From positions 62,001 to 126,000 of the forward strand of contig NZ_CP072643.1 of NCBI RefSeq assembly GCF_018304765.1: DNA of 64,000 bases, read 5' to 3'. Positions 9,511-10,135 of this stretch are shown in pieces (the first letter of the stretch is position 1; each line of letters begins with the position of its first letter). The DNA is from Chloracidobacterium sp. N. GTDB lineage: Bacteria; Acidobacteriota; Blastocatellia; Chloracidobacteriales; Chloracidobacteriaceae. The notes under the pieces were generated by a model, which saw only the letters and a program-made list of their open reading frames with translations, was not told the origin of the DNA and searched no databases. The position numbers and the translations under genes are program-made.

Positions 9511-10087
9511 GGCTACCTCACAGATATTATACCTGCTAACTCTGTCAATCTCCCTGAGTAATGGGATCGCCTGGAACTGGAATAGGATGATTCCCCATGA
9601 AGTGGGACTCTCGGGGCTTAGGACTTTTGTTCACAATTCAGGTTAAGCTGCTACGGCCTGAAATCCTTAAGGCCACCGGTCTCAGAACCCGCTTCACAAG
9701 GAGCCACAGGGTTATCTTCACTTTGAAACTGGAAACGCCCTGAACACTGTAACGGATTCCCTCGGGTTGGGTGAGGAGGGTATGTGGTGGTTAGTACTGA
9801 ACTTCATCCGCCACACCTTGGAATCAGCAGGGGGTACGGCCGGGTAAAGCTCCGTACCACGGCCATCAAACAGGCTGTAGAGCCTGTCTGTTGGCCCTGC
9901 CGGCAGGCATGGCGTATTGGTTAGCATAAGTGATACACCCAAGGTTTTCTGATACCTCCAGTGTACCCATACGATGACCGGGTGTAAATGGGTTTTGGCG
10001 AACTTCGGCGAAACTGAGCTTGGCTGTAACTTGCTGCTTTTGCAGTAGTTTGCGATGCCTGGCGAATGTTGCCGAACTTGGGAAAAA
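9511..10087. other. Left flank of the tRNA-Phe element, with an integrase relic
   Basis: There is no intact gene in these 577 bases. The only recognisable content is the integrase N-terminus at 9718-9927 (separate entry). The remainder is AT-richer than the chromosome and I could assign nothing in it. Confidence 0.5.
9718..9927 (-). pseudogene. P4-type tyrosine recombinase, N-terminal fragment
   Basis: The ATG at 9927 opens 69 codons. The first 45 give MLTNTPCLPAGPTDRLYSLF, then DGRGTELYPAVPPADSKVWR, MKFS. This is the DUF4102 N-terminal arm-binding domain of P4-family integrases, whose usual form is LTDT...KP.D..Y.LFDG.GLYL.V.P.GSK.WR.KYR. The rest of the enzyme is absent. It starts about 160 bp from the 3' end of the tRNA-Phe duplication at 10088 and points away from it, the classical place and direction for a P4-like integrase. 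It therefore probably belonged to an older element in the same tRNA. Confidence 0.65.
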
Positions 10088-10135
10088 TGGCTAGGGAGGG
10101 AATCGAACCCCCGACACACGGATTTTCAGTCCGTT
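10088..10135. repeat. Left attachment repeat (48 bp of tRNA-Phe 3' half)
   Basis: This is a 48-base exact copy of 18456-18503, running from the tRNA discriminator base through the T arm, variable loop and the 3' side of the anticodon arm, including the anticodon. After 10135 the sequence no longer matches the tRNA. The CCA present next to the right copy is absent here, so this is the duplicated fragment, not a gene. Confidence 0.92.

Follow-up and report, generated by a model that had tools for sequence, protein, structure and literature searches.

At the tRNA-Phe gene of Chloracidobacterium sp. N, a 69-codon frame on the minus strand (start codon 9927, stop 9718) lies just outside the left repeat of an integrated element, and it raises the question of whether a different element had used the same gene. 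We analysed this frame, hereafter the relic, in a window of 64,000 nucleotides (C2:62001-126000 of a 3.72-Mb genome in two contigs, called G000 here; bare positions refer to the window), and compared it with six other genomes of the genus (G001-G006). The relic is probably what remains, on the tRNA side, of a dead P4-like integrative element that once sat at tRNA-Phe, a younger element having later recombined at the same core; we put the probability of this reading at about 0.85. That two different mobile elements used this tRNA site is most likely. The features concerned are collected in Table 1.

Table 1. Features of the tRNA-Phe locus, in window positions.
Feature	Position	Strand	Basis
AT-rich accessory stretch	4700..9700		composition, Pfam
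Tail of the 69-codon frame, without clear integrase similarity	9718..9795	-	BLASTP alignments end at residue 43-46
Truncated N-terminal part (about 44 codons) of a P4-type integrase, arm-binding domain	9796..9927	-	tblastn/BLASTP, independent profile, shuffles
Three-part GGTAY/GTATC array that probably served the relic integrase as arm-type sites	9932..9967	-	pattern search
Displaced tRNA-Phe 3' fragment (att core), followed by TTT instead of CCA	10088..10135	-	48/48 identity
Intact integrase at the tRNA-distal end of the current element, with an uncertain start codon	10244..11647	+	PF00589 and PF13356 over cut-off
Left GGCTAC tandem, where the current element probably has arm-type sites	10266..10282	+	direct repeat with 18377-18393
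Right GGCTAC tandem, where the current element probably has further arm-type sites; also kept in G005	18377..18393	+	direct repeat with 10266-10282
tRNA-Phe (GAA), live target gene, encodes CCA	18453..18528	-	ARAGORN

Integrase likeness of the 69-codon frame

Likeness to integrases was clear only for codons 1-44 or so. In tblastn searches of 72,556 plasmid records the relic matched 84 records at E <=10 (top two 2e-3 and 3e-3), and in the best tblastn and BLASTP alignments plasmid integrases matched it from residue 1; among the 20 listed of these 84 matches, 13 lay in annotated integrases or recombinases and 7 where no feature is annotated. The same search of 50,697 phage records gave 26 matches, with the best integrase at E 1e-2, and the 20 listed comprised 12 integrases, five matches without annotation or an annotated record, and three other proteins (E 3 to 9). 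No relative was found in viral_contigs. Eight full integrases from outside the genus, phage P4's included and all surfaced from searches with the relic, were then compared by tblastn with window 1-10087, and for every one of them the relic was the best match (next place E 0.038); a single alignment of the eight, that of phage phiEt88, extended to 9730, gapped and at 33% identity. We rejected the possibility that the relic duplicates the current integrase, as the latter gave no tblastn match there.

We also built a profile in which the relic played no part. Its 28 arm domains, found with PF13356 in other Acidobacteriota, represent all of the 29 loci L101-L129 except L121, whose domain is partial; L077, another PF13356 place, and three congeneric domains were likewise outside it. 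Among the 1592 stop-to-stop frames of the window with 20 residues or more, the relic ranked second (E 0.003), after the intact integrase (2.4e-6) and ahead of the next frame (0.53), and it covers the first half of the arm domain (profile positions 2-41 of 85). The proposal of the preliminary description that this is the N-terminal piece of a different P4-type integrase is thus borne out by the independent profile and by the lack of a match to the current integrase. In the PHROGs library, the relic matched phrog_3423, a family of unknown function (E 0.0015-0.0035), which the intact integrase also matches (2e-6). The profile search of the 69-codon frame that had been suggested finds an integrase when run with the 28-domain profile, so the refuting outcome named for it did not occur. 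Pfam returned nothing at E up to 1, NCBIfam nothing significant (E 0.18, with a 43-residue form only), and PF13356, searched against the entire genome at E up to 10, listed the intact integrase together with a weak place (E 3.4) but did not list the relic. We read these misses as limited sensitivity, because the relic amounts to about half a domain.

The misses and weak scores in curated libraries would also be expected if the relic were a random frame with a chance similarity, a reading that we consider almost inconceivable. In 999 dinucleotide shuffles of 9601-10087, none reached the relic's 14.4 bits (largest 9.2), nor did any reach its score with a second profile, which contains relic-picked sequences; its rank among the window frames and the arm-site-like array that stands before it argue in the same direction.

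Across 396 genomes of the phylum, 18 matched the relic at E <=0.05, this genome included, with the best other match at E 6.2e-4. Two of the 18 other relic-matching places (in G045 and G084) coincide with PF13356 places, and one of six relic-matching stretches matched the current integrase. Within the genome there is no second copy of the relic (next E 0.28). No catalytic domain for it was found by tblastn of 11 full integrases against window 1-10087 or by profile in C2:47-72.2 kb, and profiles revealed no other integrase parts in the latter region, where the arm profile's next frame scored E 0.19. With the first half of its arm domain found and its C-terminal catalytic domain not, the relic is a remnant of a P4-type integrase and not a working member of the family.

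The displaced core and the sites before the relic

The left repeat is an exact copy of part of the tRNA gene: 10088-10135 and 18456-18503 are identical at 48/48 positions, which span the tRNA from the anticodon stem to the discriminator. Between this displaced core and the relic's start codon lie 160 bases, and the relic points away from the tRNA fragment, an arrangement shared with P4-like elements, so that both the distance of about 160 bp and the orientation given in the preliminary description are upheld. Three of the nine records fetched for comparison have an annotated core or tRNA, and in these the distance to the integrase start is 151 bp (phage P4), 144 bp (phiKM1) and 189 bp (Salmonella tRNA-Leu); the gap at the relic falls in their 140-190 bp range and thus agrees with the spacing of P4-type integrases. 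The attP-int record of phage P4 has core, spacing and orientation as at the relic, and among P4-type integrases with Arm-DNA-bind_3 (PF13356) the N-terminal residues of P4 Int (X05947) align with it. The relic differs from P4 Int in that about 44 codons remain, with a two-residue insertion and without the catalytic domain.

The bases that follow the core differ between its two copies. At tRNA-Phe itself the core continues into CCA in G000, G001, G004, G005 and G006, and into CTTCA in G002 and G003, whereas the displaced core runs on into TTTTTCCC, and the TTT found there is not native in any of the six congeners compared. Such a neighbour is what the junction of a second element is expected to leave, because the DNA past the displaced core predates the last integration there. 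Decay of a CCA was rejected as a source of the TTT, as all three adjacent bases (3/3) are changed while 48/48 core bases are kept. A further copy of the 48-bp repeat, which the preliminary description proposed seeking to the left, was not found: there is no third copy in C2:1-126000, and none in the genome at the sensitivity of the search used (in one search for further copies, 40 of 101 candidates were scored).

Directly before the relic's start codon stands a three-part array, GGTAC-N-GGTAT-N-GTATC (9967-9932), the single match in the window to a pattern that we formulated with knowledge of the relic. It arose in none of 20,000 base shuffles of the sequence upstream of the relic. Upstream of 33 other P4-type integrases (24 of the loci L101-L129, five having been dropped as near contig ends or offset, and 9 relic-picked records), GGGTAY hexamers were enriched, with 31 observed, in 12/33, against 3.8 expected. 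The three-part array occurs before 8 of 30 such integrases (the same 24 loci and 6 relic-picked ones) and is absent in 22, as compared with 1 of 9000 base shuffles; 6 of the 24 that were not relic-picked carry it, and 2 of the 8 carriers are relic-picked. Both patterns were devised once the relic was known, and the enrichment shuffles preserve base composition only. Phage P4, unlike the relic, is without GGGTAY before its integrase. We found no second GGTAY tandem that would mark the far end of the older element in C2:47-82 kb. The array is probably an arm-type site of the relic integrase.

These features bear on a further alternative, namely that an unrelated rearrangement brought the integrase piece here and that it was never part of an element at tRNA-Phe. 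Such an origin would fit the lack of a far att copy and of any other element part assignable to the relic; even so it is very unlikely, given that the orientation, the 160-bp spacing and the array are those of an integrase beside its own core, and that the TTT after the core is not native in the congeners.

Accessory DNA and the order of arrival

The nearest congener, G005, is 94% identical over the right flank. Its match to G000 breaks off within a helicase gene, at C2:61358; after 21 bases the alignment picks up again at window 18353, some 100 bp short of the tRNA, and the right end of the current element is retained (97.9% over 527 bases). G005 was therefore rejected as an empty site: a gap that starts inside the helicase gene and spares that right end is a deletion scar. 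In G006, chromosome that ends near C2:47.8 kb in G000 stands within about 350 bp of tRNA-Phe, and about 32.6 kb (C2:47.8-80.45 kb) is accessory because it is missing there, namely about 24.3 kb on the left and the 8.4-kb current element; accessory DNA thus continues about 14 kb left of the window. In G001-G004 the neighbours on that side of tRNA-Phe are different and share no long match with G000, and these four are no guide to where the limits lie.

Of window 1-10087, the core alone was matched in the six congener stretches beside tRNA-Phe. Over 39 genomes, own included, 9500-10135 found matches in 34 others, all within its last 61 bases (the tRNA part), and none in four of the 38 others; 9500-10087 was found in none of the 38, and the strain comparison thus yielded no case of the region without an element. 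An integrase beside tRNA-Phe was sought in the six congeners over 20 kb (5.6 kb in G001) and none was found (best profile E 0.72 and 0.76). The repeatedly used hotspot of the preliminary description would rest mainly on the two elements of this genome; among the congeners, G005 keeps a scar of the current one.

Two observations were made elsewhere. In G006 (L046:19690-19754) the bases after CCA (TAACAATCAACAA) resemble those of G000 (ATAAAATCAACAG), and a GGGTAC/GGGTAA pair about 50 bp beyond is perhaps an older scar of a similar element; the wider flanks of the two genomes, compared directly, were no more alike than shuffles. In G022, of another genus of the class, contig C25 (L033; G022:C25:12195-12240) has two tRNA-Phe core-like copies 13.2 kb apart, one of which adjoins an integrase-like frame matching only the C-terminal part of the profile; ARAGORN called no tRNA in L033.

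In the reading we prefer, an older P4-like element would have sat at the 3' end of tRNA-Phe, with an integrase gene that began about 160 bp from the att core, was directed away from the tRNA and had arm-binding sites just in front of it. Deletion or rearrangement would then have taken the far att site and all integrase codons beyond the first 44 or so, and the younger element (about 10136-18455) would have recombined at the same core, so that it now separates the relic from the live tRNA gene. We infer three things here: the function of the array as an arm site, the use of this core by the relic's element, and the earlier arrival of that element. For the older element in its entirety we found no relative.

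Arrival order, and with it the preliminary description's proposal that the current element landed between the tRNA and the older one, cannot be read from the order of the DNA, because a dead element that had inserted into the displaced core would give the same picture. The current element could have come first, with the now-dead one integrating later into the displaced fragment 10088-10135 and decaying there, which would produce the same final arrangement and would likewise leave the left copy without CCA; the displaced core is also still perfect, and SGI1 is described in PMC2297512 as forming tandem arrays at one att site, a non-tRNA site. We regard this order as rather unlikely, since the relic is truncated and its far att site was not found, while the current element looks intact and has its right end in common with G005. 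Prior arrival of the dead element is preferred because the relic is decayed.

Cargo of that older element may survive in the AT-rich genes at 4.7-9.7 kb, which comprise an ECF sigma factor, DUF2703, a membrane protein, and short hydrolase- and glyoxalase-like frames. To trace the cargo we searched for relatives of the Zn-ribbon protein and obtained one weak partial match, in a Bacteroidaceae bin; among plasmid records, DUF2703 matched 1 and the sigma factor 2633.

Further left, C2:47.9-63.5 kb of G000 (L057, L058), which reaches into the window, carries a DUF499/DUF3780/DUF1156-methylase/PLD-helicase defence locus; DUF3780 is presented as a marker of 'Type-2' BREX-related systems in PMC12839542. 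The locus is common in part to G005, where it is broken (L045, C2:236000-255999): about 0.3 kb of DUF499 aligns, and the helicase is cut by the same deletion that took the islands at tRNA-Phe. Between methylase and helicase, G000 has a PDC-M28B/C pair, and at the same place in G005 the flanking matches lie 10 bases apart.

Relation to known islands

Like the relic, the current element (about 8.4 kb) belongs with the P4-type integrase family, has a tRNA target and carries tandem arm-like sites, but its integrase is far from the tRNA, its arm motif is GGCTAC and it has no sequence match to the relic. Within it, window 13062-16214 encodes a Toprim/DUF3987 protein of 1050 residues and a small protein that is HTH-like but stays below the Pfam cut-off, a combination found in satellite-like elements, and a 172-residue frame (17696-18214) has no Pfam match. 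A relative occupies tRNA-Met in G005 C1 (L085:4437-15467), with an integrase 89% identical and a 50-bp core (94%); despite the closeness of the two integrases, its tandem arm-like sites are different ones (TGGCTGGATGG).

Two islands at one tRNA gene are a well-known arrangement, to which the relic adds a decayed instance. The Islander database holds 3919 islands and 125 tandems of two or more, according to PMC4383910, and its tandem tDNA islands resemble the present locus in that a single tRNA gene has two integrases (one dead here) and a 3' fragment of the tRNA that has been displaced. Under the Islander rule that each island of a tandem has its own integrase and its own tDNA fragment, the current island, which has both, qualifies; the older one, with a broken integrase and no tDNA fragment found for its far end, does not. 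Among the papers listed in our literature search on the genus, none dealt with islands or phages.

Turnover at the site may tentatively be credited with a further effect, the toggling of the encoded CCA: the junction of the older element would have removed it and that of the younger would have restored it. This reading rests on three bases, and we would not place it at even odds. If it holds, the host would switch between an encoded CCA and dependence on the CCA-adding enzyme for tRNA-Phe. A search for CCA toggling by island turnover found no paper combining all the terms, which were narrow, and this carries little weight.

The picture of tRNA genes as recurrent insertion sites is unaltered by this locus. 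What the locus presents is one tRNA gene used in layers by two different elements, in a lineage with few P4-type integrases (PF13356 matches 2 of 58 genomes among the relatives, own included; across the phylum, under a stricter limit, it matches 110 of 396). It also suggests a signature for dead tRNA islands that curated profiles miss, namely a tRNA fragment that is perfect but wrongly continued on its 3' side, together with an array of arm sites and the short beginning of an integrase.
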